A stretch of DNA of 64,000 nucleotides from assembly GCA_013791775.1 (NCBI GenBank), contig VMTE01000035.1, positions 57,183 through 121,182 of the forward strand, in the 5' to 3' direction. Made by a program: the position numbers and the translations under genes. Under the pieces are notes generated by a model. It did no database searches. It was not told where the DNA came from and was given only the letters and a program-made list of their open reading frames with translations. The DNA is from Hyphomonas sp. GTDB taxonomy: Bacteria; Pseudomonadota; Alphaproteobacteria; Caulobacterales; Hyphomonadaceae. This document shows positions 9,092 to 27,370 of the stretch, in pieces (position 1 is the stretch's first letter; each line of letters starts with the position of its first letter).

Positions 9092-10219
9092 TCACACCAT
9101 CAACCGGAACACCGAGACGCCGATGAAGTTCGCAATGGCGTTGCCGAGTATGCCGCACAGCATGCCGGGCGTGATGAGTGTACGCCATTTGAAGGTGGCG
9201 GCCATGGCGGACGCCGTGGGTCCGCCAAGGATCGCGGCGTTGGAGGCGATGAGCGCTTCGGCGACGTCAAGGGCAAAGAGCCGCGTGGCCAGCAGCAGCA
9301 CGCCGACATGGACCGAGACAATGGTGAGCGCGAAGGCAATGACATCCAGCGAGTTCGCCGACAGCGAGCGCAGGTCCGTGAAGGCACCGATCACCGGCAT
9401 ATACAGATAGATGAATATGAGACCGGCCTCTTCAGCCCCCCGTTCCATCGCCAGCTGCCTGGGGAAGAGATTGGCGATCACAAGAGCGATCCCGGATACG
9501 AACAGGAGCGTATAGTTCTGGAGGCCGAACCTCTCGGCCATCAGAGCTGAGGCGGCGACGATGACGGCGCTGGCCGCGATCGACGTGAGCATGCGCGTCG
9601 ATCTGAGAGGCGTCTCGGTGCTGGATTCACCGGGCGGAGCGGCGGCTGCGTCTGCCATCACGTCAGAACGGAAGAACCGCCTCAGGAATGGAGTGGTTGG
9701 CAAGGTCATGATCAGGATCATGAAGCTGATGCCACCGACGGCGTCTGCCGCGAAAGCCACGGAGAGTGAGGCAGGATCGTGGAAATCGACCATCTGCGAG
9801 ACAGCAACGAGGTTTGATGAGCCACCGATGTAACTCGCCGACAGAACGGCAGCTATGGCGGGTTCGTCCGGACCGAGATCAAAGAACAGAACGCCTGCCG
9901 CGACGCCAATCAATGTCGAAAGGCTCGCAATGCCGAAGAGCAGCAGGAGCGGGCCGGCGATGCGGTATATGCGTCTGAAATCTGCCTGAAAGAGAAGCAG
10001 CGGAATCGCGAGCGGAATGAGCCAGGCGCCGAGGGTCGAGTAAATTGGCGCGTCGGAAGGCATGACGCTGGTTGAGGTCAGGACTGTTGGTATAAGGATC
10101 GAAACCAGAATGCCGGGAACACGCCGGCCCCATTTCGTGCTGTCGATCCAATAGCCAAACGCCGCGGAAACGGCGATGATGGCAAAGAGCGCGTAGGGAT
10201 CGTTTACGTAGGCGTTCAT
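9092..10219 (-). CDS. DUF819 family integral membrane protein, putative permease
   Basis: A 375-residue protein with about ten hydrophobic helices and the glycine-rich segments typical of DUF819, such as ASYIGGSSNLVAV and ILGGPTASAMAATFKW. The family looks like an export or import permease, but its substrates are not established. The ATG at 10219 overlaps the stop of the C45 acyltransferase gene by 4 bp, so both come from one transcript that probably starts at the S12 hydrolase promoter near 13.03 kb. Pairing with an amide-cutting or amide-forming enzyme suggests transport of its substrate or product. The long frame extending upstream to 11074 is a shadow of the acyltransferase gene. Confidence 0.85.
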   Translation of the reverse strand: MNAYVNDPYALFAIIAVSAAFGYWIDSTKWGRRVPGILVSILIPTVLTSTSVMPSDAPIYSTLGAWLIPLAIPLLLFQADFRRIYRIAGPLLLLFGIASLSTLIGVAAGVLFFDLGPDEPAIAAVLSASYIGGSSNLVAVSQMVDFHDPASLSVAFAADAVGGISFMILIMTLPTTPFLRRFFRSDVMADAAAAPPGESSTETPLRSTRMLTSIAASAVIVAASALMAERFGLQNYTLLFVSGIALVIANLFPRQLAMERGAEEAGLIFIYLYMPVIGAFTDLRSLSANSLDVIAFALTIVSVHVGVLLLATRLFALDVAEALIASNAAILGGPTASAMAATFKWRTLITPGMLCGILGNAIANFIGVSVFRLMV

Positions 10220-11370
10220 GCTGCACTCCCAGACGTATCGGCTGAAAGGTCGAACACCCGGAAGTCCGTGCAGCTCGGCGGGCCGGCGGCGATATGCATT
10301 GCTGGCTTTGGTCCAAGCTCGAAGACCGTACAGGCGAGTGTATAGTCGATGACCGTTTCGGCCGAGAGTGTGGCCGGCATTTCGCGCGAGAGCGGATGTT
10401 TCGTGTGCGCGGTCGAAGAAAAGATGTCTTTGACGCCGCTGATACTCGCTGATCCTGGTTCGGCTAGGCTGGCGACGAGCTGAGCGTAGCGTGCGCAGGA
10501 GTTTTCGGACTTCTTCGCGCGAACTTCCGGGGGGAGTTTGTCGAGCACGGATCGGTATTCCGCGTCGTCCGGATTGGCGAGCGGGTGATTGGTGTGAGCC
10601 ACCGGGTCGCTGACGCCGCTCGTCTGGGTTTGAACCACCTTGCGCCCGGACGCTTCGAAACTGCCGAAGCCGTCTGCGCCGCCGATTACATAGTTCTGGC
10701 CCGACCCGGACTGGACGCTTTTCAGGACCTCGCGAGCCTGCGCGAAGCTGTTCGCTTCGAGTATAAGCCGGATAACGCCCATGACCGGCAGACCGCTCTT
10801 GTTGCCGTCGAGTTGCACGAGCGAGTTCACACAAACGCCGACCGAGCTGCCATTGACGCCGTTGAGAGCGAGCAGGCCCGGCAATGAAAACAGGAGTGTG
10901 CGCTGGCCGCTGGCGGTATCCACATGCAGAAAGAGACGCTGGAAGCCTTCCATCCAGTTCACGCCGTCGAAATTCTGCGCGACAAGCGTAACACCCTCCG
11001 CCGTTTTCAGCGCGAGCGCGCTGCAGTGGTGCGGCGTTCTGGACGTTCGAATGCGCCGTGCACGGTAGGACCATTCTTCATCGAGAAGCTGAAGGTCGAA
11101 AATATCATCGAAGGGAAGGCCTGCGCCATCGGCGATGCCTTCGATCTCCTCGAGCAGATGCGGCGCATACGTTCTGAACCCCTCGACATAGCCGGTGTCG
11201 GCGCGGAATTGCTGCATGTACGCACGCGCTTCTGCGCCGGGGGCCGCGACATGCCGCTCCCAGGCTGCACGAAGCCTGCGGATATCGCCCGCGCAAGCCG
11301 AACCGTGCTGGCGCCCACGCTCCCGGGCGCTTCCTCGCAACGTGATCAAGGGGATATCCTCAGGATGCAT
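10216..11370 (-). CDS. C45-family autoproteolytic acyltransferase/hydrolase
   Basis: A 384-residue protein of the acyl-CoA:6-aminopenicillanate acyltransferase (AAT/C45) family. The N-terminus has GSARERGRQHG. The central HHCSALAL contains the expected nucleophile Cys116, followed by AQNFDG, the usual xQNxD element, and later NSLVQLDG and AHTNHPL. Members are made as precursors and cleave themselves before the Cys, freeing an N-terminal nucleophile that cuts or forms amide bonds. Here the residue before Cys116 is His, not the Gly of the fungal enzyme, so cleavage is not certain. The neighbours are a DUF819 permease (4-bp overlap) and an S12 hydrolase 4 bp upstream. No signal peptide: a cytoplasmic amidase or acyltransferase is likely. 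Confidence 0.85.
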   Translation of the reverse strand: MHPEDIPLITLRGSARERGRQHGSACAGDIRRLRAAWERHVAAPGAEARAYMQQFRADTGYVEGFRTYAPHLLEEIEGIADGAGLPFDDIFDLQLLDEEWSYRARRIRTSRTPHHCSALALKTAEGVTLVAQNFDGVNWMEGFQRLFLHVDTASGQRTLLFSLPGLLALNGVNGSSVGVCVNSLVQLDGNKSGLPVMGVIRLILEANSFAQAREVLKSVQSGSGQNYVIGGADGFGSFEASGRKVVQTQTSGVSDPVAHTNHPLANPDDAEYRSVLDKLPPEVRAKKSENSCARYAQLVASLAEPGSASISGVKDIFSSTAHTKHPLSREMPATLSAETVIDYTLACTVFELGPKPAMHIAAGPPSCTDFRVFDLSADTSGSAA

Positions 11371-11374
11371 GATA

Positions 11375-13018
11375 TTATTCTCGGCGCGTGAACTTGAGGT
11401 TTTTGACGCGCCAGGTACTCAGCAGGAAACTGTCCGAAGACTCAAATTCGATGCAGAGGCCGAACGGCGCAAAAATGTAACGTCCGTTGTCGAGGGCGGT
11501 CAGCGGGATAGGCGGTTGTCCGGCCATGACGATCGAAAGCGTTCCGTCCAGCACGGCAAGTTCGTATTCGCTGCCAAGCTCTTCCGAGTAAAATGCGCCG
11601 GTCGGGATGGTCTCGACGGGGCTGGTCGACACATCGACGCGGCGCGCTTCGGCAGCAGGCCCAACGCCGGTCAACGTCATGGAATTGAAGCGCGTGCCGT
11701 CCAGATCTGAAAACGAAATGCGGACCTGACTTGGCGCATGCAGCAACTCGGTGTCCGACACCGCTTCCATCGGAAGCATTCCAAAGGGATCGACGGCGAC
11801 AAGGATCGTATTTCCTTCATGGATGATCTGTGCATCACGGCCTGCTTCGAACTCGTAGAATCCGGTCAGCCTTGCGACCGCCTGTTCGTCCAGGCTGGCG
11901 CCGGGTGACGGCGTACGGCGCGGCGCAGGTTCGCTGAACGCATCGTCAAACAGCACGTCGAGAACCTTTTCCGCGAGGGGTTGCGGGCGCTGGCTGCCAT
12001 TGCCGAGAACCGTGACGACGATCCCTTTTTCCGGCAGCAGGATCAGAATCGATCTGTATCCGGATTCAGATCCACTGTGCATGAAGACGGTCTGGCCGCG
12101 ATACTGCGTCAGTTCGAGTCCCATACCATAGGCGACGGACTGGCCGTCATTCAGCCGGGCAGGCGCGACCATCTGTTGAGCCCGCGCATCTCCTTCGCGC
12201 ATGGCAGCCAGGAAATGAAGGCCCCACTTCGCCAGATCGCCTGCGCTGGCATAGGCATTCGTACTGCCGACGGTTCCGGCGGAATGAGGGATCAGATGCC
12301 AAACGGTCGCTTCGCCGTCGAAGACGTAGGATTTTGCAGAACCTGCCGGCATTGAACCGGGCGTGTCCATGATTGCAGCGCCGGTCAATCCGGCGGGGTC
12401 GAAGACGAGTTGCTGTGTCAGTGACGAGAAGCTGCGGTGCGTCGCGGCTTCCATGGCGAGCGCCGTGAGCAGATAGCCGCTGTTGGAATAGAGGTAGCGA
12501 TCACCGGCAGGAAAGTTCAGAGCTGCCTGGCGATGCAGGAGCGCCAGGCCGTCGGTGTTCGAAATCGGTTCGGAAGCAGACCGGCCGGCCATGATGTACA
12601 TCGTGCCGGTGTCGCGGATGCCGGATGTATGATTGAGCATCTGGCGCGACGTGACATCACGCGCATAGGCGGGCGCATCGGGCAGATAGCGGGAGAGGGG
12701 GGCGTCAAGATCATATTCGCCTGATGCGGAGAGGCTGGTTGCCGCCCAGGCCGTCAGCGCCTTGCTGACGGACGCCAGGTTGAAGCGGGTGGCGTCACTG
12801 ATAGGCTCTTTGGTTTCAAGGTCGGCCGCGCCGAAGTTTTGCGTGCATTGAACTTCGCCGTTCACAGCGACGGCGACCGCGAAGCCCGGATTGTCGGTGC
12901 CGGCGAAGTCGGCGAAAATCGGCGCGATGTTCTCGCAGGCTGGCTGGAGCGGCTGCTCGCTGGACGACACACAGGCGCCCAGAAGCAGGAAAAGCGTAGT
13001 TGACGCAAAGCGGCGCAT
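11375..13018 (-). CDS. S12-type serine hydrolase lipoprotein (beta-lactamase fold)
   Basis: A 547-residue lipoprotein: signal peptide with lipobox LLGAC (Cys16), then a class C beta-lactamase/D-aminopeptidase domain. The catalytic SVSK tetrad (Ser83, Lys86), the YSN motif and a third motif in HSGSESGY are all visible. About 170 C-terminal residues form an extra beta-rich domain, as in DD-peptidase/D-aminopeptidase relatives. It should hydrolyse an ester or amide, often of a D-amino acid or peptide, in the periplasm. I chose ATG 13018, behind GGGAGACAGG; the longer frame to 13063 would run into the palindromic operator. It is first in a run with the C45 and DUF819 genes and divergent from the P450. 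Confidence 0.88.
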   Translation of the reverse strand: MRRFASTTLFLLLGACVSSSEQPLQPACENIAPIFADFAGTDNPGFAVAVAVNGEVQCTQNFGAADLETKEPISDATRFNLASVSKALTAWAATSLSASGEYDLDAPLSRYLPDAPAYARDVTSRQMLNHTSGIRDTGTMYIMAGRSASEPISNTDGLALLHRQAALNFPAGDRYLYSNSGYLLTALAMEAATHRSFSSLTQQLVFDPAGLTGAAIMDTPGSMPAGSAKSYVFDGEATVWHLIPHSAGTVGSTNAYASAGDLAKWGLHFLAAMREGDARAQQMVAPARLNDGQSVAYGMGLELTQYRGQTVFMHSGSESGYRSILILLPEKGIVVTVLGNGSQRPQPLAEKVLDVLFDDAFSEPAPRRTPSPGASLDEQAVARLTGFYEFEAGRDAQIIHEGNTILVAVDPFGMLPMEAVSDTELLHAPSQVRISFSDLDGTRFNSMTLTGVGPAAEARRVDVSTSPVETIPTGAFYSEELGSEYELAVLDGTLSIVMAGQPPIPLTALDNGRYIFAPFGLCIEFESSDSFLLSTWRVKNLKFTRRE

Positions 13019-13041
13019 GATCACCTGTCTCCCAAGAAAAA

Positions 13042-13063
13042 ATGACATTGATATCATCGTCAT
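13042..13063. promoter_or_regulatory. Palindromic operator in the S12 hydrolase/P450 divergent promoter
   Basis: A 22-bp inverted repeat whose half-sites are ATGACATTGAT and the complement of ATCATCGTCAT (9 of 11 pairs match); flanking A/T bases extend the symmetry. It lies between the divergent hydrolase and P450 starts. The same sequence recurs at 16731-16752 with 18 of 22 identical bases, between the acyl-CoA ligase and TonB receptor genes. Size and symmetry fit a TetR-family operator, and the island's only regulator, a TetR protein at 14360-15076, lies between the two sites. Binding is inferred. Confidence 0.7.
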
Positions 13064-13167: not shown

Positions 13168-14358
13168 ATGATTCACCCTGGAACATTCCCGATCGGAGAT
13201 TCCGTTGACCCCGTTCAATTGAGCAAGGACCCTTACACCATTCTGTCGCGGATGCGCGAGCGCGAGCCGGTTTCGCGGGTTGCGAAGTTCGGGATGTATT
13301 ACATTGTCCGCCATGACGACGTCACTGCGGTGTTGCGCGATGACGTGAACTACGGTGTCGGCGTCGAGAGCATGCTTGTCTATGACACCTTTGGCCGGCA
13401 CATGATGACGGTCGATGGCGAGGAGCACAACCGCTATCGACTGGCCGCGCGGGCGCCGTTCACGGCCAAGCTCATTCGAGAGCGACTCGAAGCGAAGATC
13501 ACGGAGACGGTCGACAAGCTGATCGACGGCTTTGAAACTGACGGCCGGGTTGAAATTCGCAGTGCCTTTGCAAGCCGGCTTCCTGTCCAGGTCATGCTTG
13601 CAGTCTTTGGATTGCCCGCAGAAGACGAACCTCTCTTGCGCAAATGGTATGACGCCTTCGAACAGGCGCTCGGCAATTACGAATGGGATCCGGCTGTGCG
13701 CCAGCGCGGCCAGCAGTATGTTGCGGAATTCAAGTCCCATCTGACCATGCGTCTCGAGGCCTACAAGGGCCGAAGCGGTGAGACGAACCTGCTTGCCGCA
13801 TTGGTCAATGATGCGCCCGAACGCCGGCTCACCGACGAAGAAATCCTGCGCAATGCCCTTATCATTTTCTTTGGGGGCATTTCGACCGTTGAGGCGCTGG
13901 TGCTGAATGCGCTTTATGCGCTTGCCATGCATCCCCGGACCTTTGACCGGGTGAAGCGTGACCCGGCCTTGATTCCCGTCACGCTCGAAGAGACGGTGCG
14001 CTGGTTGTCGCCCGTGCAGGCGGTGACGCGCCATGTTCGGAAGGAGATGACGTTGCGCGGTGTCGTCTTCAAGGAAGGTGACCTCGTCAATTGCATGATA
14101 GGAAGCGCCAATCGCGACGCGGGCGTGTTCATCCATCCTGATGTGTTCGATATTGATCGCCCGGATCTATCACGCCATATCGCGTTTGCGACCGGTCCGC
14201 ACACGTGCCTCGGTCTGCAATTGGCGCGCACGGAGGGACGGATCGCGCTATCGCGGCTTTTCGCCCGGTTTCCAGGTTGCCGTGTCGATCTCAAAACCAC
14301 CTCCTTGCCGGAGGGCTATGAATTCCGGCAACCGAGCCGGCTTGATCTGGTCTGGTAG
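13168..14358 (+). CDS. Cytochrome P450
   Basis: A 396-residue soluble bacterial P450. The haem loop FATGPHTCLG provides the thiolate Cys (about residue 347), the K helix has EETVR (ExxR), and the C-helix region has GEEHNRYR. The oxygen-activation motif in the I helix reads FGGISTVEA: the usual acid before Thr (A-G-x-D/E-T) is replaced by Ser. The enzyme should need ferredoxin and a ferredoxin reductase, neither of which is adjacent. ATG 13168 follows GAGAAGGGA at ideal spacing, so I prefer it to in-frame upstream starts. It is divergent from the S12 hydrolase across a palindromic operator and convergent with the TetR gene. A role in hydroxylating the island's substrate is inference. Confidence 0.9.
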   Translation: MIHPGTFPIGDSVDPVQLSKDPYTILSRMREREPVSRVAKFGMYYIVRHDDVTAVLRDDVNYGVGVESMLVYDTFGRHMMTVDGEEHNRYRLAARAPFTAKLIRERLEAKITETVDKLIDGFETDGRVEIRSAFASRLPVQVMLAVFGLPAEDEPLLRKWYDAFEQALGNYEWDPAVRQRGQQYVAEFKSHLTMRLEAYKGRSGETNLLAALVNDAPERRLTDEEILRNALIIFFGGISTVEALVLNALYALAMHPRTFDRVKRDPALIPVTLEETVRWLSPVQAVTRHVRKEMTLRGVVFKEGDLVNCMIGSANRDAGVFIHPDVFDIDRPDLSRHIAFATGPHTCLGLQLARTEGRIALSRLFARFPGCRVDLKTTSLPEGYEFRQPSRLDLVW

Positions 14359-14359: not shown

Positions 14360-15076
14360 TCAGCTGGTCATTCCTGGCGGATCACGGAGGTAGAGTGCGC
14401 GGTACCAGATGGCGGACAGTTTCTCGACGACATCGTCTTCCGTCTTCGTCAGTCCGACGACAATCGGATCGGGGTTCTGGAATCGAACGTAGAGGAATTC
14501 CTCGACCATGGATCCGAGGGCGTAGACCAGCAGCTTGATCTGGTCGGCGGACATATTCTTGCCGACCTCGGTGCGTGAGAGATGAGATATGTTGCGGTTG
14601 TACCAGGCTGCATCCGTCTTGCGCTTGAGCGCCGCGAACAAGGGGTCTTGTTCGCTCAGCGCACGGATGCAGCGCATCAATCCGAGGTTTTCGCAGTAGT
14701 AGCGAATGAAGGCGGCGGTCGTGTCGCGGATGCGCGTGAACTCGTCTGCAGCGTGCCCGGGACGCAAATCGCGGTCCAGGATATCGAAGTACTCTTCGAT
14801 GATAGCCTGCACAATGTCGTGGCGATTCTTGTAGTGCGTATAAAAGGTGCCATGCGAAACGCCGGCGTGTTTTGAGATGTCGGCCACATGCAGTTCATTG
14901 ACGCTGCGGTCTTCCAGAAGCTCGGCCGCGGCGATCCGAAGGCGCAGCGCCGTACGCTGGGATTTGTCGAGGCCCATTGAATCCGACTCGGCCTGGATGA
15001 TGCGCGGATAACGCATGTTGCCGCGGGACAGGTCCGCCATCTTCGTCTGGGGGGATTTGGTCCGATGGCTCGGCAT
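14360..15076 (-). CDS. TetR-family transcriptional regulator
   Basis: A 238-residue regulator. After about 35 poorly structured residues comes the TetR HTH, with RIAAAELLEDRSVNELHVADISKHAGVS then HGTFYTHYKNRHDI, and an all-helical ligand domain behind it. The ATG sits directly after the stop of the acyl-CoA ligase gene (TGAATG), so it is the second gene of that operon and is co-produced. It ends 1 bp from the convergent P450 gene. Its likely operators are the two palindromes at 13042-13063 and 16731-16752, which would control both arms of the island and, through the ligase promoter, itself. An acyl-CoA or free acid substrate is a plausible inducer, as in other TetR regulators linked to acyl-CoA ligases. 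Confidence 0.9.
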   Translation of the reverse strand: MPSHRTKSPQTKMADLSRGNMRYPRIIQAESDSMGLDKSQRTALRLRIAAAELLEDRSVNELHVADISKHAGVSHGTFYTHYKNRHDIVQAIIEEYFDILDRDLRPGHAADEFTRIRDTTAAFIRYYCENLGLMRCIRALSEQDPLFAALKRKTDAAWYNRNISHLSRTEVGKNMSADQIKLLVYALGSMVEEFLYVRFQNPDPIVVGLTKTEDDVVEKLSAIWYRALYLRDPPGMTS

Positions 15077-16660
15077 TCACTTCTCCGGCGCTGTCGCGCT
15101 TTTTGTCATTTGTGCCGTGTCAGCGAAATCTTCGCCTCGAGGCGGGGTGGGCTCATTTGCGCGCAAGGTGGCCTTCTCTACTCTTTCTGAAGGGGTCATC
15201 GGCAATGCCTCGACCTCTTCCCAATAGCGCGGAACCTTGAAACGGGCGATTCTCTGTGACACGAATTCATGAAGTTCACCCATCGAAGGTTGCTGCCTTT
15301 TTGCAGACTTCTTGAACAAGATAAATACTTTCACTTCTTCGCCGCGTATATCATCCGGGACCGGGATGCAGGCCGCGAGGGCGACACCCGGGTGGGATTC
15401 GATGGCCGCTTCGACCTCGGCTGCGGCAATGTTCTCGCCGCCCCGCCGAATCATATCCTTAGTGCGGCCAACATAATAGAAGACGCCCGCGTTGTCCTGC
15501 CGGACGAGATCGCCTGTCATGTAGAAGCCGGCCATGAACGCATTCGCTGTCGCGGCGGGATCGTTGTGATAGCCATCCATCATGCCGAGGCCGCGAATTG
15601 CCAGTTGCCCGACTTCGCCTTGCTTCACCGGCCGTCCGTCAGCGCCGAGGGCGCGGGCCTCCTTCGTCGGAACCGGCTTGCCGATGGCGCCCGTTCCCAG
15701 CGCGGCATCGTGATCCTCGGGCCCGACAATCAGATCGCCGCCGGTTTCGGTCGTCCCGAAGGCTTCGAACCAGGGGCAGGCGAACCGGGACTCGAGTTCC
15801 TTGTGCCGATCGCGCGGAATCCCGGAACACAGCACCTGGCGGACCTTGTGATCGCGCTCGAACGACGAAGGCGGCACCTGCAGCATCAGGCTTGGCATGG
15901 CGCCAAGGCAATAGAAGAAGGTTGTCTGGCTCTCGCAGACTTGCTGCCAGAAGCGGCTGGGGCTGAACTTCTCGAGGATTGTCAGCGAGGCGCCGGACTG
16001 GAGCGCAGCGATGACGTTCCATTGTGGATCGGCGTAGCTGAAGGGCTGCGCCGTCAGGACGCGGTCCTCAGGTGTGAGGCGCGGGCCTGTTCGCAGAAAA
16101 CACTCTCCGAAGCGAATCCAGTAATTGTTCGAGAGGACGCAGCCTTTGGGCATGCCGGTTGTACCCGACGTGTACTGTATATTTGCCGTCGTGTGCGCCA
16201 TGACCAAGGGCAGTTCGGGCTGAGACGTATGCGCAGCCTCGTTGACCAGTGTTTCGATGTCAGCGCTCCAGGCGAGACCCGGCGGCAAGCTGCGTGCGCC
16301 GGCGAGGGTGCGCAGATTGTCGTCTTCGGCGATGAAGGCCACGGCGCCGGAATGGGAGAGGATGTGATTTCTGTCAGAGTCGCGGTAGCGCACATTGACA
16401 GGTGCCATGGCGGCGCCCGCCTTGATGATCGCGAGCCACAGAAGAGGGAATTCGAGGCGGTTGGGGAGCATCACGGCGACGACGTCGCCTGTCTTCACGC
16501 CGCGCTTGACGAGTGCGCCGGCGATCGCGGTCGAGCGGCGCTCCAGTTCGCTGAAGGTGATCGCGCCATTGCCGAGTTCGCACGTGATGGCCGGACGGTC
16601 TGGCCAGCGATGAGCCGCCTCTGCGGTCAGTTCGGGAATGGTTGCAGGAAAGGAACTCAT
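15077..16660 (-). CDS. Acyl-CoA synthetase (AMP-forming, CaiC/FadD-like)
   Basis: A 527-residue ANL-superfamily ligase. The P-loop-like adenylation motif is YTSGTTGMPKGC. Later come FGTTETGG, YMTGDLVRQD, the hinge GRTKDMIRRGGENIAAAEVE and the C-terminal Lys in MTPSERVEKATLR. It should activate a carboxylic acid to its CoA thioester. The closest general plan is crotonobetaine/carnitine-CoA ligase and related small-acid ligases, but substrate cannot be read reliably. ATG 16660 follows TTGGAGG, a strong ribosome-binding site. It is divergent from the TonB receptor across a palindromic operator and co-transcribed with the TetR gene. Confidence 0.9.
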   Translation of the reverse strand: MSSFPATIPELTAEAAHRWPDRPAITCELGNGAITFSELERRSTAIAGALVKRGVKTGDVVAVMLPNRLEFPLLWLAIIKAGAAMAPVNVRYRDSDRNHILSHSGAVAFIAEDDNLRTLAGARSLPPGLAWSADIETLVNEAAHTSQPELPLVMAHTTANIQYTSGTTGMPKGCVLSNNYWIRFGECFLRTGPRLTPEDRVLTAQPFSYADPQWNVIAALQSGASLTILEKFSPSRFWQQVCESQTTFFYCLGAMPSLMLQVPPSSFERDHKVRQVLCSGIPRDRHKELESRFACPWFEAFGTTETGGDLIVGPEDHDAALGTGAIGKPVPTKEARALGADGRPVKQGEVGQLAIRGLGMMDGYHNDPAATANAFMAGFYMTGDLVRQDNAGVFYYVGRTKDMIRRGGENIAAAEVEAAIESHPGVALAACIPVPDDIRGEEVKVFILFKKSAKRQQPSMGELHEFVSQRIARFKVPRYWEEVEALPMTPSERVEKATLRANEPTPPRGEDFADTAQMTKSATAPEK

Positions 16661-16730: not shown

Positions 16731-16752
16731 ATGACATTGACGTCAGTGTCAT
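16731..16752. promoter_or_regulatory. Palindromic operator in the ligase/TonB receptor divergent promoter
   Basis: A 22-bp inverted repeat with half-sites ATGACATTGAC and the complement of GTCAGTGTCAT; 10 of 11 pairs match. It differs from the 13042-13063 copy at only four positions. It lies 71 bp upstream of the ligase start and 66 bp upstream of the TonB receptor start. It is the likely site where the TetR protein of this island represses both directions. Confidence 0.75.
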
Positions 16753-19159: not shown

Positions 19160-20614
19160 ATGAGCAAGGTGCTGGTACGAAAGTGGTCGTTGGTCGCCTC
19201 ATTGCTGCTGACGTCAGCGTTTCTCACGGTGGGTTGCGCGACGCCGCGCGAGGCGTCGCAGTCGGTGATCGAAGTGCCGCAAACGGTCGAGGAGCGCCTC
19301 GAAGGCGCGGCGCGCACGGCCTACGAAGGCGGTGCCTATGCGGGACTTTCGGTCGGCGTTTACAGGAACGGTGACGCGCTCTTCGAGGGGCAGTTTGGTG
19401 AAGCAAACATCGAAAACGCCGTTCCCGTCGATAGCCGTACGGTTTTCTATGTCGGATCAATCACCAAGCCTTTCACGGGGCTGGCGGCGAACCTGCTGAT
19501 CGAGGAGGGCGCTCTGTCGCTCTCCGACACGGTCGGGCAGATTCTTCCGGGCTACCAGGGAGCGGGATCCACAGTCACGGTGGCTCAACTCCTGAGCCAG
19601 ACTTCCGGCATTCCCGACTATGTCGATGCGGCCGTTTCGGCTTCGTTCATCCCTTACAGCCGGGAAGATGTCCTGGCGTTGTTTTCCGGCAAGCCGCTCG
19701 TGTTCACGCCGGGAGAACGCTGGCAGTATTCAAACTCCAACGCCTATCTGCTGGGGCTGATCATCGAGGCGGTGACAGGCAAGACCTATGGTGAGTTCAT
19801 CAGCGAACGCGTTGCAGCGCCTCTCGGCTTGGCATCCACTCAGTTTGCGGATGAAACATTGATTGTTCCGCATCGTGCAGACGGATATTTCCTGTCCCCG
19901 AATGGATACCTGAACGCGCCGAAATACGACCCGCTTCTGCCGTTCTCGGCAGGCTCGCTGCTGTCGACGCCGGGAGATATCGCGAAGTTTGCGCGCGCCG
20001 CTTATGGCTCGGGGCAAAGCGAACTGGTATCGAACAACGTTCGCGAGCGTTTGCTTTCGCCGGTTGTGTTGCCCGGCGGTCTCGAAAGTTTTTATCGCCT
20101 CGGCTCAGTTGCGCTTTTGAGTTTTGAGGGTCGCCGGAAAGTATCGCACGCCGGGCTGACAGCGGGATTCACAAGCCATTTCGGCTATTATCCTGACGAT
20201 GATCTGGTAGTCGTTGTTCTTGCAAACGGGTCGGGAGTATCGCCGCACCCCGCTCACATCGAAGCCGAACTTGCACGCATAGCGCTTGGTCTGCCGCAGC
20301 CTTCCATTTCCGCAGAGCCAATCGACGAAGTCCTGGCGGGAGATTTTTCCGGCGACTACAAGCTGGCGCCCGCCATGTTTTTCGGAACGGATGTGTTCGG
20401 CTTCGTGGTGCGTGATGGCGGCCTCGCGTTTCAGTTTGGCCCGTCGTCTGCGTCGGACCCGGCAATTCCCCTCGTATACATTGGCGAAGATGTTTTCGTC
20501 AGTGCCGCCGACAGCGAGCACGTCTTTTCGTTTCGTCGCAACGAAGCCGGCGACGTCGTCTCTCTCGATCTCGAATTCTACGGCATGCCATTTTCCGGGG
20601 CCCACCAGCCATGA
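19160..20614 (+). CDS. S12-type serine hydrolase lipoprotein
   Basis: A 484-residue lipoprotein with lipobox LTVGC (Cys26), the catalytic tetrad SITK (Ser100, Lys103), a YSN motif in WQYSNSNAYL and the third motif in SHAGLTAGF. A C-terminal beta-rich extension of about 110 residues follows. It should cut an amide or ester bond in the periplasm. It is distinct from the other S12 lipoprotein at 11375. An AAGGA lies almost on top of ATG 19160 and about 10 bp before GTG 19169, so translation may begin at the GTG, three codons later. The crotonase gene overlaps its end by 4 bp. Confidence 0.88.
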   Translation: MSKVLVRKWSLVASLLLTSAFLTVGCATPREASQSVIEVPQTVEERLEGAARTAYEGGAYAGLSVGVYRNGDALFEGQFGEANIENAVPVDSRTVFYVGSITKPFTGLAANLLIEEGALSLSDTVGQILPGYQGAGSTVTVAQLLSQTSGIPDYVDAAVSASFIPYSREDVLALFSGKPLVFTPGERWQYSNSNAYLLGLIIEAVTGKTYGEFISERVAAPLGLASTQFADETLIVPHRADGYFLSPNGYLNAPKYDPLLPFSAGSLLSTPGDIAKFARAAYGSGQSELVSNNVRERLLSPVVLPGGLESFYRLGSVALLSFEGRRKVSHAGLTAGFTSHFGYYPDDDLVVVVLANGSGVSPHPAHIEAELARIALGLPQPSISAEPIDEVLAGDFSGDYKLAPAMFFGTDVFGFVVRDGGLAFQFGPSSASDPAIPLVYIGEDVFVSAADSEHVFSFRRNEAGDVVSLDLEFYGMPFSGAHQP

Positions 20615-21411
20615 CCAAGCCGACGTCCCCTGAATCTGCGTCTGTCGCTCCCCGTTCGGAAGACGATGTTGTGCTGTGCGAAAAAGTCGACCGCATCGCC
20701 ACCATCACGCTCAACCGGCCCGCGCGGTTGAACGCGATCAATCGCAAACTGATCGAACAACTGCATGCTGCGATTGGCGATTGCATGGATGACGACGATG
20801 TCGCCAGCATCATACTGACCGGCGCTGGCCGCGCATTTTGCGCGGGCGACGATCTGAAGGACATGCCGGACGAATTTGTTCTGGATGAACATTTCGGAGA
20901 GACTGTAGACATTCTGCAAGATATTTCGCGGTTGCTCGTCCTGGGCCCCAAGCCTAGCGTCGCGGCCATCCGAGGCTGGGCTGTTGGCGGAGGATTGTCC
21001 TGGGCGATCAATTGCGATGAGCTGGTCTTTGCCGACAACGTGGTTGCATTCTTTTCGGAGGTCGGTCTGGGTCTTTCGGTTTCTGGCGGGGTGACCTACC
21101 TTCTCCCGGCTGCAATCGGCAGGATGCGTGCGCGGTCTCTCCTGATGTCCGGGCGGCGACTGAAGAGCCAGGAAGCTCTGGAGTATGGCTTGGCAATGTA
21201 TGTGGCATCGGATGCAGACCTGGATGCGGTTGCACTGGAGCGTGCGAAGGAACTGGCCAGACTTCCTGCCAACGCACTTGGCGAACTCAAGCGCTCGCTG
21301 AACAGTCTTGAACGGAATGCCTTAGAAGAGGCGCTCTCGAATGAAGCCAGCGCTCTGAAGCTTCTGATGCATGATATGGCAACCAGCAAGGCCTGGCCGA
21401 GCGTACGATGA
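20611..21411 (+). CDS. Enoyl-CoA hydratase/isomerase family protein (crotonase)
   Basis: A 266-residue crotonase. The oxyanion-hole segments are AFCAGDDLKDM and RGWAVGGGLSWAINCDE. The position of the first catalytic Glu of enoyl-CoA hydratase (GGGCE in the rat enzyme) is Ser here (GGGLS), while the second Glu is present in FSEVGLGL. The enzyme may therefore be an isomerase, hydrolase or unusual hydratase. It acts on a CoA thioester, presumably made by the island's acyl-CoA ligase. It overlaps the S12 hydrolase and the CocE-like hydrolase genes by 4 bp each, so it sits inside a coupled operon. Confidence 0.88.
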   Translation: MTKPTSPESASVAPRSEDDVVLCEKVDRIATITLNRPARLNAINRKLIEQLHAAIGDCMDDDDVASIILTGAGRAFCAGDDLKDMPDEFVLDEHFGETVDILQDISRLLVLGPKPSVAAIRGWAVGGGLSWAINCDELVFADNVVAFFSEVGLGLSVSGGVTYLLPAAIGRMRARSLLMSGRRLKSQEALEYGLAMYVASDADLDAVALERAKELARLPANALGELKRSLNSLERNALEEALSNEASALKLLMHDMATSKAWPSVR

Positions 21412-23255
21412 GCGTTCGCATTTTTATCATTTGCTGTCTTGCTCTTCTCGGCGCGTGCGCGACGAAGGCGGACCGGCCTGTTTCTCCGCCTCGGCTTCAA
21501 TCCGAGTATGTGACCATGCGCGACAGTGTGGACCTTGCCGTTGATGTCTGGACGCCGGCGTCAGCTGAGCTGGAGAAGGTTCCTGCGATCATTCTGTTCA
21601 CACGCTACTGGAGAGCACGGGACGTCGGTTCAACGAACCCCGGCGATGATGTAAACTTCGAAAGAGCGGTGAAGTTTTCGGCGGCGGGATATGCGCTCGT
21701 CATGGTTGATGTCCGCGGCTCAGGCGCATCATTCGGAGAGCGGCGCGCAGAATTTTCGCCGGAAGAGATCCAGGACCTGGGCGAAGTTGTCGAGTGGATT
21801 GCAGCGCAGCCGTGGTCAAATGGACGCGTGGCCGCAATGGGTTCGTCCTATCTGGGCAACACGGCGGAACTGGCAGCGATTCATGGCGGCCTGGCTTTCC
21901 GCGCCGCAGTTCCTCGCTTCAGCGACTATGACCTCTACAGGTACGCTGTGTTTCCCGGCGGCGTGCCGAATACGGTTCTTCTCAACGCGTGGGCCTCGAT
22001 TGTCGCGTCGCTGGATAGCAACGAGAAATGTGCCTACGGCCCGGATACTTGCGGCGAAGGCAGGGGCGGCGGCGTGAAGCCGGTAACCGGCTCCGAAAAC
22101 CAGCTCGACATGGCAGTTCTCGCGCACGAGAAGAATCTCGATGTGTCGACCCTGCTCGATACGCTTACGTTCATTGATGACAGCGCGAGCGCAGACAGCG
22201 ACCCGAAGGTCACCCTTTCGAGTGTCAGTCCGAGTGCGTTGAAGGGTGATCTCGACAAAGCCGGTGTGCCCATGCAGTTTTGGGTAAGCTGGTACGATGC
22301 TGCAACAGCAGATGGCGCGCTCAGTCGCTACATGACGTCGAAGGCGCCCATGCAGCTCATCATCGGCCCGTGGAATCACGGTGCGACGGTTGACGCCAAT
22401 CCGTACACGCCTTTCGACGTTGACTACGTCGGTCCATCCGTGAGCGACCAGTACGGGAAGATATTCGAGTTCCTGGATCCCTTGATGAAGGGTGACACCG
22501 GTTCTGAAGTGAAATCGCGGATCGACTATTTCACAGTGGGCGCAAACAAATGGCAGGTTACCGATACCTGGCCGCCGGCGGGTGTGCAGAACATTTCGCT
22601 CTACGCGGGGCTTGAATCGACGCTTGCGACAAGCGTGGGCGCGGCGGGAAAGGACACCTACACCGTCGATTATTCGATCATATCAGCCCCGAAGAACCGA
22701 TGGACAACGCAACTGGGAGAGCCGGTTGACTACAGCGCCTGGACTTCAGACGGGAAGCTCAGCTTCACGTCGGCGCCACTGAAAAGCGAAGTGGAGATCA
22801 CGGGTCAGCCGGTTGTGGAACTTTGGCTGGAGTCCTCGGCGCCCGACGGCGCGCTGCACGTCTATCTTGAAGATGTCGCGGAAGACGGCAAGGCGACCTA
22901 TTTGACCGAGGGCGTATTCCGGCTTCAGCACCGCAAGGTTTCGGCTGGCTCGCCCGATTTCCATGTGTTTGGACCATTTCACAGCTTCAAGCGCGCAGAT
23001 GCTGCGCCGATGCCGGAAGGCGCGCCGGAAAATGTTGCCTTCAATCTGTTGCCGATATCCGCCACGCTCGCCCGGGGACACCGGATAAGGGTTTCGGTTG
23101 CCGGCGCGGATGCCTCGGCTTTCGGTCGTATTCCGGCCATCGGAGATGCGCCTGTCTATGGTTTGCATTATGGCGGCGTAACACCAACGCGAATTGACTT
23201 GCCCGTCATGACGCCGGCGGCTTTCGAATTCGAAGCAGCAGACGTGGGCGAATGA
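21408..23255 (+). CDS. CocE/NonD-family (X-Pro dipeptidyl-peptidase-like) hydrolase, lipoprotein
   Basis: A 615-residue lipoprotein (lipobox LLGAC, Cys17) with an S15-type alpha/beta-hydrolase domain. The nucleophile is Ser147 in GSSYLG, and DVRGSGASFGE forms the preceding strand-loop. A helical cap follows, then the C-terminal jelly-roll PepX_C domain (from about residue 430) with ARGHRIRVSVAGAD. Relatives cleave cocaine esters, X-Pro dipeptides, glutaryl-7-ACA amides or alpha-amino acid esters. In the periplasm it probably cuts an ester or amide of the imported compound. It overlaps its neighbours by 4 bp on both sides. Confidence 0.88.
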   Translation: MSVRIFIICCLALLGACATKADRPVSPPRLQSEYVTMRDSVDLAVDVWTPASAELEKVPAIILFTRYWRARDVGSTNPGDDVNFERAVKFSAAGYALVMVDVRGSGASFGERRAEFSPEEIQDLGEVVEWIAAQPWSNGRVAAMGSSYLGNTAELAAIHGGLAFRAAVPRFSDYDLYRYAVFPGGVPNTVLLNAWASIVASLDSNEKCAYGPDTCGEGRGGGVKPVTGSENQLDMAVLAHEKNLDVSTLLDTLTFIDDSASADSDPKVTLSSVSPSALKGDLDKAGVPMQFWVSWYDAATADGALSRYMTSKAPMQLIIGPWNHGATVDANPYTPFDVDYVGPSVSDQYGKIFEFLDPLMKGDTGSEVKSRIDYFTVGANKWQVTDTWPPAGVQNISLYAGLESTLATSVGAAGKDTYTVDYSIISAPKNRWTTQLGEPVDYSAWTSDGKLSFTSAPLKSEVEITGQPVVELWLESSAPDGALHVYLEDVAEDGKATYLTEGVFRLQHRKVSAGSPDFHVFGPFHSFKRADAAPMPEGAPENVAFNLLPISATLARGHRIRVSVAGADASAFGRIPAIGDAPVYGLHYGGVTPTRIDLPVMTPAAFEFEAADVGE

Positions 23256-24607
23256 TGTCAACCACCGTTCCAGCACGCACGATAGGCCTCTTTGGCGCGA
23301 CCGTCACGATCATCGGATTTGTCGTCGGCGCGTCGATTTTCATCCTGCCCGGCGCCATTGCGGCCGAGGCCGGCCCGGGTGTTGTCCTTTCCTACCTTGT
23401 CGCCGGTTTGCTCGCACTGTTCTCGTGTGTGGTTGCCGCGCAGATAGGTGTCGCGTTTCCAACGAGCGGCGCAAGTTTTGTGGCCATCGGCCGGCTTGTC
23501 TCGCCGTTGGCGGGCTTTGTCTGCATCTGGATGATGATCGGTGCCGCGGCGGTCGCCGTTGCGCTGCTCGGATACGGATTTGCAGATTACGTACATGTGT
23601 GGATCGCCGGTGTGGACCGGCGGATTGTTGGCTTGGTGACCATTCTCCTCCTCACGCTGATCAACCTGTTTGGCGTGCGCGAAGCGGTTTCTGCGCAGTA
23701 CGTCATGGTGGCGGCGTTCGCGGCAGCTCTCGTTCTGTTCGGAGTTGCGGCGCTCCTGAATGCCGACGCGAGCAATTTTGTTCCATTCCTGCCGAACGGT
23801 ATCGAGCCGGCGCTTGCCGGCGCGGTGCCTGCCTTTTTCTCCTTTGCGGGTTTCATGATCATCATCGAACTGGGCGGTGAGGTAAAGAATCCCGGGCATG
23901 CAATACCGATCGCGCTCGGCGCAAGTTTCCTGGTGGTTCTTGCGCTCTACTCGCTGACGTCGATCGCCGTCGTCGGGCTCATCCCCTGGGAGGAGCTTAA
24001 GGGGCTCGACGCGCCGGTCGCCGTGGCTGCAGCGCGTGTACTACCGGCGCCGCTCGCGGGGTTTGTTTCATTTGCTGTCCTGGCGGCGACGATCAGTTCG
24101 ATCAACGTCATGCTGCTGGCGTATTCACGCGACGTCTATGTCTTGGCGCGGGGCGGCGTGTTTCCGAAACGGATGGCGAAAACCATAGGTCGCAACAGTG
24201 TGCCAATTGGCGGCATTCTGACAATCGCCGCAGTTTCCTTCGCCGCCTATGCGTTCGAGGCCAAGATTACCGAGTACGCCACCTTTGTGGTTATCGGCGT
24301 GCTTTGCTTGCAGATCGGACTGGGTGTGGCTGCAATGCTTTTGCCCGGGAAACCGCAGTATGCTGAATTGCGCGATACGTTCCGGCTGTCAGCCGCGTCA
24401 CTTCGCTTTTTTGCAGCTGGGCTCGTACTCCTTTCCGCCGCGTTCCTGTTCATGATTGTGCGCAGCGCGCCTGCTACGGCGGCGCTAGCGCTCGGCTATC
24501 TGGCCCTGGGTGTCGTCTACTACCTGGTTCGCCGGACCATGCTCGCAAAGACATCGGCGCCTCTCGAGCAAACCCTGATCAAAGCGATCGATGACGCAAG
24601 CAACTGA
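23252..24607 (+). CDS. APC-family amino acid permease
   Basis: A 451-residue inner-membrane protein with about twelve helices. The first helix carries the substrate-binding GxxxG-type segment TIIGFVVGASIFILPG, and FFSFAGFMIIIELGGEVKNPGHAIP matches the helix 6/loop of APC amino-acid transporters. It should move an amino acid or amine across the inner membrane, probably the part released by the periplasmic hydrolases. The start overlaps the stop of the CocE-like gene, and the epimerase-like gene follows after about 50 bp. Confidence 0.9.
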   Translation: MMSTTVPARTIGLFGATVTIIGFVVGASIFILPGAIAAEAGPGVVLSYLVAGLLALFSCVVAAQIGVAFPTSGASFVAIGRLVSPLAGFVCIWMMIGAAAVAVALLGYGFADYVHVWIAGVDRRIVGLVTILLLTLINLFGVREAVSAQYVMVAAFAAALVLFGVAALLNADASNFVPFLPNGIEPALAGAVPAFFSFAGFMIIIELGGEVKNPGHAIPIALGASFLVVLALYSLTSIAVVGLIPWEELKGLDAPVAVAAARVLPAPLAGFVSFAVLAATISSINVMLLAYSRDVYVLARGGVFPKRMAKTIGRNSVPIGGILTIAAVSFAAYAFEAKITEYATFVVIGVLCLQIGLGVAAMLLPGKPQYAELRDTFRLSAASLRFFAAGLVLLSAAFLFMIVRSAPATAALALGYLALGVVYYLVRRTMLAKTSAPLEQTLIKAIDDASN

Positions 24608-24660
24608 CGCCGTCTCGCGGGGCCGTGCGCACACAAACTGAAAGCAGAAGGCGAAAACTT

Positions 24661-25641
24661 ATGCCGCTTGAACTATCCGTAAATCTGGAAGTGTGGCCTC
24701 TGACCGAGCCGTTCCGCATTGCGTCGGGCGTTTTCTCGCAAAGCGATCTGATCGTTGTGTCGGTTACTGACGGCGTTCACGTCGGCAGAGGAGAAGGGGC
24801 GCCGTCCTTCGTCTTCAATCAGGATCCGGTGGCGGAAGTTGCCTACATCGAGGAAAACCGAAGCGCCCTCGAGCGGGCATCTAGCCCGGCTGATGTTCAG
24901 GAGATCCTTCGAGCTGGTCCGGCGCGCAATGCCGTTGACTGCGCCTTCTGGGACCTGGAAGCGAAACGGCACGGGTCGATATGGTCGGTGCTGAAATTGA
25001 CGCCGCCGCCCCATCTCGACGCGTTCATGACGATCGGAATCGATGAGCCGTCAGCCATGGCGCGCCAGGCTGAACGGCTGAGCTCTTATCCGCTTCTGAA
25101 GATCAAGCTGAATGCGGACAGGGTTGTGGAAAAAATGTCCGCCATCCATTCGGTTGCGCCCAATTCCCGCATGATTGTCGACGTGAACGAAGGCTGGACG
25201 CTGGATCATCTCCGTGAATATGCGCCGCTTTTGGCTGACTTCGGCGTTGAGATGATCGAGCAACCCATGCCGAGAAATGCCGATGGAGCTCTCTCGGGTT
25301 ATGTTTCGCCCATTCCGCTGTGTGCGGACGAATCGATCCGAACACGCGCAGAGCTGGACCGGGTCGCAGGCCTCTATCAGATGATCAATATCAAGCTCGA
25401 CAAGGCTGGCGGTCTTACCGAGGGGTTGGCCCTCGCGCATGCTGCCCGGGCACGCGGCATGGACGTGATGATCGGGAACATGCTCGGCACGTCGCTGTCC
25501 CTTGCGCCGGCCTTCATCGTGGGCATGTTCAGCAAGTACTGTGATCTCGACGGCGCCATGTACTATCCGAAGGACCGCGCGCACGGCACGCCCTTCAAGG
25601 ATGGGCGCGCGCATTGTTTCGTGCCGGCGCTTTGGGGGTGA
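24661..25641 (+). CDS. Dipeptide epimerase / N-acyl amino acid racemase-like enolase-superfamily enzyme
   Basis: A 326-residue muconate-lactonizing-type enolase. The first base pair KIK is Lys147/Lys149. Metal ligands are Asp174 (VDVN), Glu200 (EQPMP) and Asp223 (CADES). The second base is Lys245 in NIKLDKAGG. This layout is that of L-Ala-D/L-Glu epimerases, also seen in N-acetyl-glutamate racemase (DgcA) proteins. It should interconvert L- and D-forms of an acylated or peptidyl amino acid. ATG 24661 is preceded by AGAAGG. Downstream is an SDR 43 bp away. Peptide and N-acyl amino acid substrates are both possible. Confidence 0.85.
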   Translation: MPLELSVNLEVWPLTEPFRIASGVFSQSDLIVVSVTDGVHVGRGEGAPSFVFNQDPVAEVAYIEENRSALERASSPADVQEILRAGPARNAVDCAFWDLEAKRHGSIWSVLKLTPPPHLDAFMTIGIDEPSAMARQAERLSSYPLLKIKLNADRVVEKMSAIHSVAPNSRMIVDVNEGWTLDHLREYAPLLADFGVEMIEQPMPRNADGALSGYVSPIPLCADESIRTRAELDRVAGLYQMINIKLDKAGGLTEGLALAHAARARGMDVMIGNMLGTSLSLAPAFIVGMFSKYCDLDGAMYYPKDRAHGTPFKDGRAHCFVPALWG

Positions 25642-25684
25642 AGCAGGCGCGCGCACCAGGCGGCGCACGTGCCGGAAAACGGTT

Positions 25685-26473
25685 ATGGGAAAGTCAACGT
25701 CAATGAATGAACTGGGAGCGTGCCGCGTACTTGTTACAGGCGCCGACACGACGGCGCGGGTCATCTCGGAATGTTTCCTGGCTGCCGGGGCGCGTGTGTT
25801 CGCATGCGATGTCCGGCGCGACGCCGTTGACGCGCTGTGTGCGGCGCACCCGGCGATGGATGCGGTTGTGGCTGATGTCAGCGTCGAGGACGATGTCACG
25901 CGCCTGGTTGCGGCAGCTGAAAGCCATATGGGCGGGATTGATGCTCTCATCAATGTTGTCGGTGTCGCTGGCCCGGCCAAACCTGTTGAGGAGATCACGC
26001 TTCACGAATGGCGCTCGACATTTGCGGTCAACACGGACGGCGTATTCCTAACAGCGCGCGCAGTTGCGCCGGGCATGAAGGCCCGGCGTCAAGGTTCCAT
26101 CATCAATATCTCGACCGCTTCAACGCGGACACTCCCCGTCAATCGTTCGCCCTATATTTCGTCGAAAGCGGCGGTCGAAGGTCTGACGCGCGCCCTTGCC
26201 CGTGAACTTGGACCGCACAATGTGCGTGTCAATGCAATCCTGCCTGGCGGCATCAATGGCGAGCGTATGCGCGGCATATTTCATCGCATGGCAGAAGAGC
26301 GCGGCATCAGTGACGCGCAGTTTGCGGAAGAAGCGTTGAAGCATGTTTCGATGCGTACACTGATAGAGCCCGCGGAGATCGCCGATATGGCGCTCTTTCT
26401 GTGCTCTGATCGCGCGCGGCACATTACAGGACAGCTCATCGCGGTCGATGGGCATTCAGAGTGGGAGCAATAA
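25685..26473 (+). CDS. Short-chain dehydrogenase/reductase with altered cofactor motif
   Basis: A 262-residue SDR. The catalytic residues are in place: Ser in INISTAS and the YxxxK pair in PYISSKAAVEG, plus NVRVNAILPGG and the C-terminal GQLIAVDGH. The N-terminal cofactor loop, normally TGxxxGxG, reads TGADTTARV, so two glycines are lost and the loop is one residue shorter. Either the enzyme binds NAD(P) differently or it is impaired. It precedes the beta-keto acid cleavage gene with no gap (TAAATG), so it is a candidate for making that enzyme's beta-keto substrate from a beta-hydroxy acid. An alternative start is ATG 25703. Confidence 0.85.
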   Translation: MGKSTSMNELGACRVLVTGADTTARVISECFLAAGARVFACDVRRDAVDALCAAHPAMDAVVADVSVEDDVTRLVAAAESHMGGIDALINVVGVAGPAKPVEEITLHEWRSTFAVNTDGVFLTARAVAPGMKARRQGSIINISTASTRTLPVNRSPYISSKAAVEGLTRALARELGPHNVRVNAILPGGINGERMRGIFHRMAEERGISDAQFAEEALKHVSMRTLIEPAEIADMALFLCSDRARHITGQLIAVDGHSEWEQ

Positions 26474-27370
26474 ATGTCCAAACAGAAGGTCATCATAACA
26501 TGCGCGGTGACGGGGAACGCTCCGGTCAATCCGAAGCACCCGAATTTCCCGGTGACGCCGCGCCAGATTGCGGATGCCGTCGATGAGGCCGCGAAGGCAG
26601 GCGCGGCGATCGCGCATATTCATGTGCGCGACCCGGAAACAGGCGCCGGCAGCCGCGACGTTGCGCTCTTCAAGGAAGTTGTTTCGCGGATCCGTGACCG
26701 GGGGACAAATATAGCCATCAACCTGACGGCGGGCATGGGCGCTCTCTTTCTCCCCGATCCGGAGGACGAATCGCGCGCCTTGCCCGGCAGCGACGTCATT
26801 GGGGTCGAGGCCCGCATTGCCCATCTCGCAGATTGCCTGCCCGACATTGCCTCTCTCGATGTGACGACCGGCAATCAAGAAGAGGGCGGCTTCGAATTTG
26901 TTTATCTCAATACGACCCGCACTCTGAGAGGCATGGCCAAACGTTTCAAGCAGCTCGGCGTGAAGCCAGAACTTGAGGCATTCCAGGCGGGTGATGTTCT
27001 GTTTGCCAACCAGCTCGTCGCTGAGGGCCTGGTTGATGGTCCGCCGATGTACCAGTTCGTGCTGGGTGTAAAATGGGGCGCGCCGGCAAATCCCGAGACG
27101 GTCACGTACATGAAAAACCTGATCGAACCGAAAAATGCAATCTGGACTGCGATGGGCATTGCGCGGGCCCAGTTTCCGACTGCGGCGCAATCGATCCTTC
27201 TCGGTGGGCATGTGCGGGTTGGGCTCGAGGACAATCTCTATCTCGACCGCGGTGTCTTCGCGACAAACGGACAGCTCGTCGAGCGCGCTGTGCGCTTGAT
27301 CGAGGCGGTCGGGGGGGCGGCCGCGACCACGGCTGAGGCGAGAGAAATACTTCATCTCCGCAAAGCGTGA
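26474..27370 (+). CDS. Beta-keto acid cleavage enzyme (BKACE, DUF849)
   Basis: A 298-residue TIM-barrel enzyme of the BKACE family, founded by 3-keto-5-aminohexanoate cleavage enzyme and including the dehydrocarnitine-cleaving enzyme. The metal-binding HIHVRD (His48, His50), NLTAGMG, and GGHVRVGLEDN are typical. It condenses a beta-keto acid with acetyl-CoA to give acetoacetate and a new CoA ester. The gene starts on the base after the SDR stop. Substrate specificity in this family depends on a few pocket residues and cannot be assigned by eye. It is the last gene of the plus-strand arm. Confidence 0.9.
   Translation: MSKQKVIITCAVTGNAPVNPKHPNFPVTPRQIADAVDEAAKAGAAIAHIHVRDPETGAGSRDVALFKEVVSRIRDRGTNIAINLTAGMGALFLPDPEDESRALPGSDVIGVEARIAHLADCLPDIASLDVTTGNQEEGGFEFVYLNTTRTLRGMAKRFKQLGVKPELEAFQAGDVLFANQLVAEGLVDGPPMYQFVLGVKWGAPANPETVTYMKNLIEPKNAIWTAMGIARAQFPTAAQSILLGGHVRVGLEDNLYLDRGVFATNGQLVERAVRLIEAVGGAAATTAEAREILHLRKA

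Follow-up and report, generated by a model that had tools for sequence, protein, structure and literature searches.

A fourteen-gene Hyphomonas locus that may form one TetR-controlled regulon for acylated compounds containing D-amino acids

Fourteen genes at positions 9092–27370 of a 64,000-nucleotide stretch of Hyphomonas sp. DNA (NCBI GenBank assembly GCA_013791775.1, contig VMTE01000035.1, positions 57,183–121,182; the whole stretch is called the window here) bring together a TonB-dependent receptor, hydrolases, permeases, a cytochrome P450, an acyl-CoA ligase and a beta-keto acid cleavage enzyme (BKACE), which raises the question of whether they work together and, if so, on what compound. 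Our answer, to which we assign a probability of about 0.5, is that the locus constitutes a single catabolic regulon under TetR control, serving the breakdown of an acylated amide or peptide with one or more D-amino acids. The sequence makes a strong case that the fourteen genes belong to one regulon; the substrate, the order of the steps and the binding of TetR are what we infer from it.

Profile searches of the window's open reading frames (ORFs) against Pfam and NCBIfam, by which all family assignments were checked, bore out the coordinates and families that a preliminary description had given for the fourteen genes; its count was also correct, although its listing left unnamed the TetR gene that the count needs. 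It had described two divergent arms, and transcription is indeed divergent, but orientation gives four units rather than two. In map order these are DUF819, C45 and S12a on the minus strand, transcribed from S12a to DUF819; the P450 gene on the plus strand; the TetR and acyl-CoA ligase genes on the minus strand, transcribed from the ligase; and eight plus-strand genes running TonB receptor, S12b, crotonase, CocE, APC, epimerase, SDR and BKACE. The "many" 4-bp overlaps are confirmed from the ORF coordinates in four adjacent pairs (C45/DUF819, S12b/crotonase, crotonase/CocE and CocE/APC). The GC content of the locus does not stand out (0.58–0.61 versus 0.57–0.64 over the window), so the label of island rests on gene distribution.

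The link between the four units is a pair of operator-like palindromes. The first, ATGACATTGATATCATCGTCAT (13042–13063), lies in the divergent promoter between S12a and the P450 gene (13168–14358, plus strand; PF00067), and the second, ATGACATTGACGTCAGTGTCAT (16731–16752), in that between the acyl-CoA ligase and the TonB-dependent receptor (16818–19070, plus strand; PF00593 and PF07715). Each region holds a single inverted repeat at the settings used. The two palindromes are identical at 18 of 22 bases, a level reached by 2 of 2000 shuffled pairs. Shuffling the first region 1000 times gave an equally good palindrome in 22 cases, and shuffling the second as often gave none. The P450 and TonB ORF starts as listed fall within the shared palindrome; the starts are more likely at 13168 (M43 of the listed ORF) and 16818 (M30), respectively. 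Together the two sites would serve all four units, including that of the TetR gene (14360–15076, minus strand; PF00440, 37.9 bits versus 24), whose product is the sole regulator among the fourteen genes and is presumed to bind both 22-bp palindromes. A third site is absent from the 121,182-bp contig, where the next best match is 15/22. The preliminary description had held that arms under unrelated signals would speak against a single pathway; in the sequence, both divergent promoters carry the same operator-like palindrome. A sigma-70 promoter scan returned 1 site versus 5.9 in shuffles and was not used.

A consensus built from the window's two sites only was then scanned across 169 other loci (2.62 Mb, overlaps included). 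At 17/22 or better it matched one site, 19/22 at L058:6389, which lies within a related cluster of genome G143, 21 bp upstream of a called M81 ORF and on its S12b side; in the 1.1–1.3 kb between this ORF and S12b no gene could be confirmed. Eighteen further sites reached 16/22, including one that genomes G261 (L163:18319) and G187 (L165:16756) share in their MaoC/TetR region. An operator of this type thus appears to control a related cluster in another family as well. A stricter palindrome pattern had zero matches in 171 loci. A looser core pattern found four sites each in G261 and G187, two in G143, one in G020 and none in six other regions from five genomes, with 0–0.2 expected; 6 of its 11 sites are intergenic by ORF calls. 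It was shaped after the contig scan result had been seen and is not relied on, and the operator argument therefore rests on the window-derived consensus.

Recurrence was assessed in an order-level sample of 299 genomes, the source genome included. BKACE was found in 37 (E≤1e-30), C45 in 6 and DUF819 in 46 (both at 1e-20), the epimerase in 159 (1e-40) and the P450 in 6 (1e-80), five of the latter being among the 298 other genomes, with relatives at 46–61% identity. The neighbourhood proposed for such a search, with BKACE, epimerase, C45, DUF819 and S12, stands together in no other genome examined, yet its genes partly co-occur elsewhere, and the opposite outcome, genes that never co-occur, is contradicted by a core that recurs in G187, G261 and G143 and partly in G020. 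The idea of one coherent catabolic unit is thus favoured by partial co-occurrence and the shared palindrome, but not by recurrence of the set that had been named for it. The recurrent core is S12b, a DgcA-type epimerase, CocE and TonB plus a P450 (G187, G261) or other oxygenase, and BKACE, C45, DUF819 and APC are peripheral or missing in related clusters; G020 holds P450, S12b, epimerase, TonB and DUF819 together. P450 and DgcA-type genes lie at most 14 kb apart in 3 of the 5 other P450 genomes (G261, G187 and G020; 0.08 expected), which may represent two independent events since G261 and G187 belong to one genus. Among eight genomes chosen for holding some cluster relative, the genome-wide best S12b match lies 0.08–3.0 kb from a DgcA-type gene in four (G187, G261, G020 and G143; E 1e-86 to 1e-101, runners-up 1e-44 to 1e-18), and reaches only 1e-32 to 1e-16 in G104, G045, G147 and G053. 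CocE was matched in four of the same eight, within the cluster in G261, G187 and G143 and elsewhere in G147, where the best match (44%) stands beside TonB and ligase genes.

The genes of these related loci are simple ORF calls, part of them scanned with Pfam and the others named by similarity to scanned ones. In G261 and G187 the cluster comprises P450 (61 and 59%), M81, S58, arginase-family (in G261 barely meeting the agmatinase cut-off), ligase, crotonase (36–37%) and M55 D-aminopeptidase genes, a TRAP carrier, two TonB receptors, S12b (39%), epimerase (39–42%), a biotin-dependent carboxylase, CocE (32–37%), MFS-type and MaoC genes and, in G187, a TetR gene. The G187 CocE relative is split over two adjacent reading frames (G187:C1:3961158-3962922), through gene disruption or misassembly; its relatives in G261 and G143 are in one piece. 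In G143 we found carboxylase, SDR, MFS, MaoC, ligase, crotonase, CocE (34–37%), TonB receptor, TetR-like, M55, TRAP, M81, S12b (37–38%), PhyH oxygenase, epimerase (46–48%) and DgcN genes, and crotonase relatives span 36–39% over the G187, G261 and G143 clusters. The G020 cluster has two DUF819 and two TetR-like genes, S12b (41%), MaoC-like, TonB, epimerase (42%), ligase and MFS genes, P450 (45–46%) and additional S12 genes. Further pairings are single cases: P450 0.6 kb from a 77% BKACE in G104; in G147, C45 and BKACE at a distance of 2.1 kb, accompanied by an MR/MLE enzyme, an SDR and an M20 peptidase; a BKACE-SDR-M81-DUF819 grouping in G055; and in G293, C45 and DUF819 separated by 2.1 kb, together with a protein that shares 53% identity with the G055 M81 gene.

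Support for the D-amino-acid theme of the locus is good, and it begins with the epimerase (24661–25641, plus strand, start taken at M13), an enolase-superfamily (MR/MLE) enzyme of the DgcA or L-Ala-D/L-Glu-epimerase type. Its closest solved relative is the L-Ala-D/L-Glu epimerase 1jpd, with which the KxK, D, E, D, K and DxD positions match by alignment; the G143 copy scores 400.6 on the DgcA model (cut-off 400). The related clusters carry an M55 D-aminopeptidase, M81, S58, DgcN or an agmatinase-like gene, which supports the same theme. The DUF819 gene (9092–10219, minus strand; PF05684, 210.5 bits versus 27) encodes a membrane transporter of a family that has the CPA/AT fold according to PMC8396727. 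DUF819 was matched in 45 other genomes, in at least 10 of which such a gene lies at most 10 kb from a DgcA-type gene, and this adjacency suggests that DUF819 carriers serve the same substrate class as DgcA-type enzymes.

Three hydrolases, all probable lipoproteins with lipobox-like cysteines and catalytic motifs, would act before import: S12a (11375–13018, minus strand, start taken at M16 of the listed ORF; PF00144; SVSK, YSN, HSG), S12b (19160–20614, plus strand; PF00144; SITK, YSN, HAG) and CocE/NonD (21408–23255, plus strand; PepX-like), which belongs to its family by TIGR00976 (310.9 bits versus 66.3) and a GxSxxG motif, GSSYLG. The nearest solved relative of S12a is the D-aminopeptidase 1ei5, in a mixed list in which alkaline D-peptidase and D-amino-acid amidase stand lower, and the hydrolases may be D-specific. 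D-stereospecific peptidases of non-ribosomal peptides are also S12 members. The fourth hydrolase-like enzyme, the C45 autoproteolytic acyltransferase/amidohydrolase (10216–11370, minus strand), passes the NF040521 subfamily cut-off (160.5 bits versus 85) and has an HCS motif with Cys116 as the candidate nucleophile; no signal peptide was seen in it, and it weakly matches the acyl-coenzyme A transferase entry 2x1c (E 3e-7). It may supply or remove an N-acyl group in place of DgcN. Three substrates had been suggested for the locus, of which a D-amino-acid peptide is favoured and an N-acyl amino acid possible; beta-lactam catabolism we set aside, as S12a and S12b score 62.3 and 77 bits against a class C beta-lactamase (bla_class_C) cut-off of 415, a remote family-level resemblance remaining.

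The acyl part of the substrate is represented by the P450 (heme Cys, ExxR and GGxxT present), the AMP-forming ligase (15077–16660, minus strand; PF00501 and PF13193), for which none of the 25 NCBIfam models listed reaches its cut-off, and the crotonase-family enzyme (20611–21411, plus strand; PF00378, 151.6 bits), apparently without one of the two acidic residues of classical hydratases. They are joined by the SDR (25685–26473, plus strand; PF13561) and BKACE (26474–27370, plus strand), which is the sole PF05853 match in its genome (303.9 bits versus 24.8) and has the HxH metal motif as HIH at 48 and the RxGxED segment as RVGLED at 248. An SDR adjoins BKACE in 8 of 14 loci with a 58–69% BKACE. 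Another setting for this BKACE subgroup is seen in Ramlibacter, Pigmentiphaga, Roseiarcus, Paraglaciecola and a Halieaceae metagenome-assembled genome (L069–L072 and L077), with relatives of 61–69% whose neighbours, by their sequence start, presumably resemble hydantoinase/oxoprolinase A.

One may postulate that this enzyme set points to lipopeptides or N-acyl amino lipids, as amides of beta-hydroxy or beta-amino fatty acyl groups, in which the amino acids are ordinary L-forms and a minor product is what the epimerase acts on. An SDR with BKACE requires a beta-hydroxy or beta-keto acid, and the arrangement has a precedent in deoxyribonate catabolism (PMC6365646); class III aminotransferase genes lie near BKACE in G104 (with a thioesterase) and G045, and the C45 of G077 stands beside aminotransferase, thiolase and MaoC genes. 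The D-specific peptidase families and the DgcA/DgcN genes of the related clusters nevertheless indicate D-residues, and we consider this scenario rather unlikely.

Muropeptide scavenging, in which S12 carboxypeptidases would release D-Ala, the epimerase act on L-Ala-D-Glu and the permeases import amino acids while the acyl-CoA genes are incidental, draws on the nearest solved epimerase and on the DD-carboxypeptidases among the S12 relatives. Muropeptides, however, need none of the P450, ligase and crotonase genes, which share the palindrome or operon with the epimerase and recur with it, and another DgcA-type gene is present elsewhere in the genome; we judge the scenario improbable.

Carnitine or acyl-carnitine catabolism is very unlikely. 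In that scheme esterases would free carnitine, the SDR oxidise it and BKACE yield betainyl-CoA, with a neighbouring GbdR-like regulator and sarcosine oxidase finishing glycine betaine. BKACE does work between 3-dehydrocarnitine and betainyl-CoA in Pseudomonas, according to PMC12482172, a GbdR-type AraC regulator with SoxB/SoxA lies directly downstream of the locus, and the ligase reaches 268 bits on the crotonobetaine/carnitine-CoA ligase model. That score is nevertheless below the cut-off of 651, the AraC regulator has 165 bits against a GbdR cut-off of 480, and the fourteen genes include no 3HCDH-type carnitine dehydrogenase. Among 80 GTDB loci, moreover, all 17 with an AraC relative have a BKACE of at most 56%, and none of the 14 loci at 58–69% has such a relative, and the TonB, S12, C45 and epimerase genes would be left unexplained. 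The AraC gene diverges from SoxB and SoxA at window positions 27412–33073, and among 42 genus genomes (E≤1e-60) it occurs in this one only. Least probable of all is a chance gathering of unrelated catabolic genes, which would fit the lack of a full copy elsewhere and the independent occurrence of SDR-BKACE and DUF819-epimerase pairs but not the common palindrome, the 4-bp overlaps and the recurring core.

If the locus is a TetR-controlled regulon for an acylated, D-amino-acid-containing amide or peptide, the TonB receptor would take a large, scarce substrate through the outer membrane, and S12a, S12b and CocE/PepX, as lipoprotein serine hydrolases facing the periplasm, would cleave its amide or ester bonds. 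Fragments would be imported by DUF819 and the APC amino-acid permease (23252–24607, plus strand; PF00324 and PF13520), C45 would remove or transfer the N-acyl group in the cytosol, and the epimerase would convert the N-acylated or dipeptide D-residue to L. The acyl part would be oxidised by the P450 and processed as a CoA ester by the ligase and crotonase, after which the SDR would form a beta-keto acid and BKACE, with acetyl-CoA, would give acetoacetate and an acyl-CoA. TetR would sit on the 22-bp palindrome and be released when the substrate is present.

Several results weigh against this interpretation. The epimerase falls below both equivalog cut-offs, those of the N-acetyl-D-Glu racemase DgcA (NF042940, 365.4 versus 400) and the L-Ala-D/L-Glu epimerase (PRK15129, 254.8 versus 343), and DgcN (DUF1611), the partner expected of a DgcN-DgcA pathway, was not found in the genome (0/1). 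S12, CocE and C45 are broad families, and the nearest solved relative of S12b is the beta-lactamase-related protein 2qmi, alkaline D-peptidase being second and ClbP lower. None of the fourteen genes encodes a ferredoxin or reductase that could serve the P450. None of the other order genomes examined holds the complete fourteen-gene set: BKACE (E≤1e-30) is unmatched in the whole genomes of G187, G261, G020 and G143, and the clusters of G187, G261 and G143 lack C45 and DUF819; APC did not turn up in them either. Ligase and TonB relatives in the related clusters are about 25–32% identical and may be non-orthologous, at the level of paralogues, and at a loose 14/22 cut-off the palindrome consensus is unenriched there. 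P450 relatives are absent from 384 other genomes of the class (E≤1e-90; the source genome was the only match of 385), and plasmids gave no P450 match at E≤1e-60. Plasmid-borne spread was accordingly rejected as a candidate, C45 having matches in 7 of 72,556 plasmid records, none above 35.0% identity.

A wider possibility, which we put forward tentatively, is a scattered alphaproteobacterial family of TetR-controlled, TonB-fed clusters that eat acylated, D-amino-acid-rich (perhaps beta-amino-acid) non-ribosomal peptides, with one operator type and an S12b-epimerase-CocE core. To this core exchangeable modules might be added, an equally tentative proposal: a P450 or PhyH oxygenase; TRAP/MFS or DUF819/APC; M81/M55/S58 or C45; and MaoC/carboxylase or SDR with BKACE. 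A second catabolic cluster at 39999–53209 of the window encodes a class III aminotransferase, an aldehyde dehydrogenase, an MFS protein, an S12-like protein, a TPR-sulfotransferase, a TonB receptor, a carbon-nitrogen hydrolase and a GntR-aminotransferase regulator; seven genes have 45–78% relatives in a row directly beside the S12b/DgcA/DgcN cluster of G143, and the cluster may belong to the same nutritional strategy. It is adjoined by the gene for the periplasmic glucan biosynthesis protein MdoG (54288–56585). Ordinary proteases have difficulty with peptides that contain D-amino acids, and such peptides are counted as slowly degraded organic matter. With the palindrome and the S12b-epimerase core one could search for the cluster family and predict its inducers, and for the uncharacterised DUF819 carriers they suggest a role that can be tested.

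The open-access literature searched held no paper describing this gene set, and no pathway for the uptake and use of both D-residues and acyl tail. The microcystin (mlr) cluster differs in that no MlrC (M81) or MlrA Pfam match was found in the fourteen genes, although M81 occurs in the related clusters. The DgcN-DgcA route for D-glutamate, described in PMC10845958 and PMC11747546, is alike in its DgcA-type racemase, an often adjoining DUF819 gene and a D-amino-acid theme; it is unlike in that here the genome is without DgcN, the racemase is under the DgcA cut-off, and P450, acyl-CoA and BKACE steps are added. With the deoxyribonate pathway of PMC6365646 the locus shares SDR and BKACE and the sequence of oxidation followed by beta-keto acid cleavage, but the fourteen genes include no lactonase or glycerate kinase and the neighbours differ. 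The D-stereospecific peptidases that cut non-ribosomal peptides are likewise serine peptidases aimed at D-residues; they are described as serving resistance or maturation (PMC12516957), whereas here the enzymes are probable lipoproteins beside uptake and catabolic genes. The clusters of G187, G261, G143 and G020 differ in being without BKACE, C45 and APC, with DUF819 only in G020 and SDR in G143, and in carrying M81, M55, S58, agmatinase-like, TRAP, MFS, MaoC, carboxylase and DgcN genes in varying sets. Shared with the Hyphomonas locus are S12b, the epimerase and TonB, which all four hold, CocE and P450, each of which three hold, and the operator-like site at 19/22 in G143 and in weaker variants in G187 and G261.

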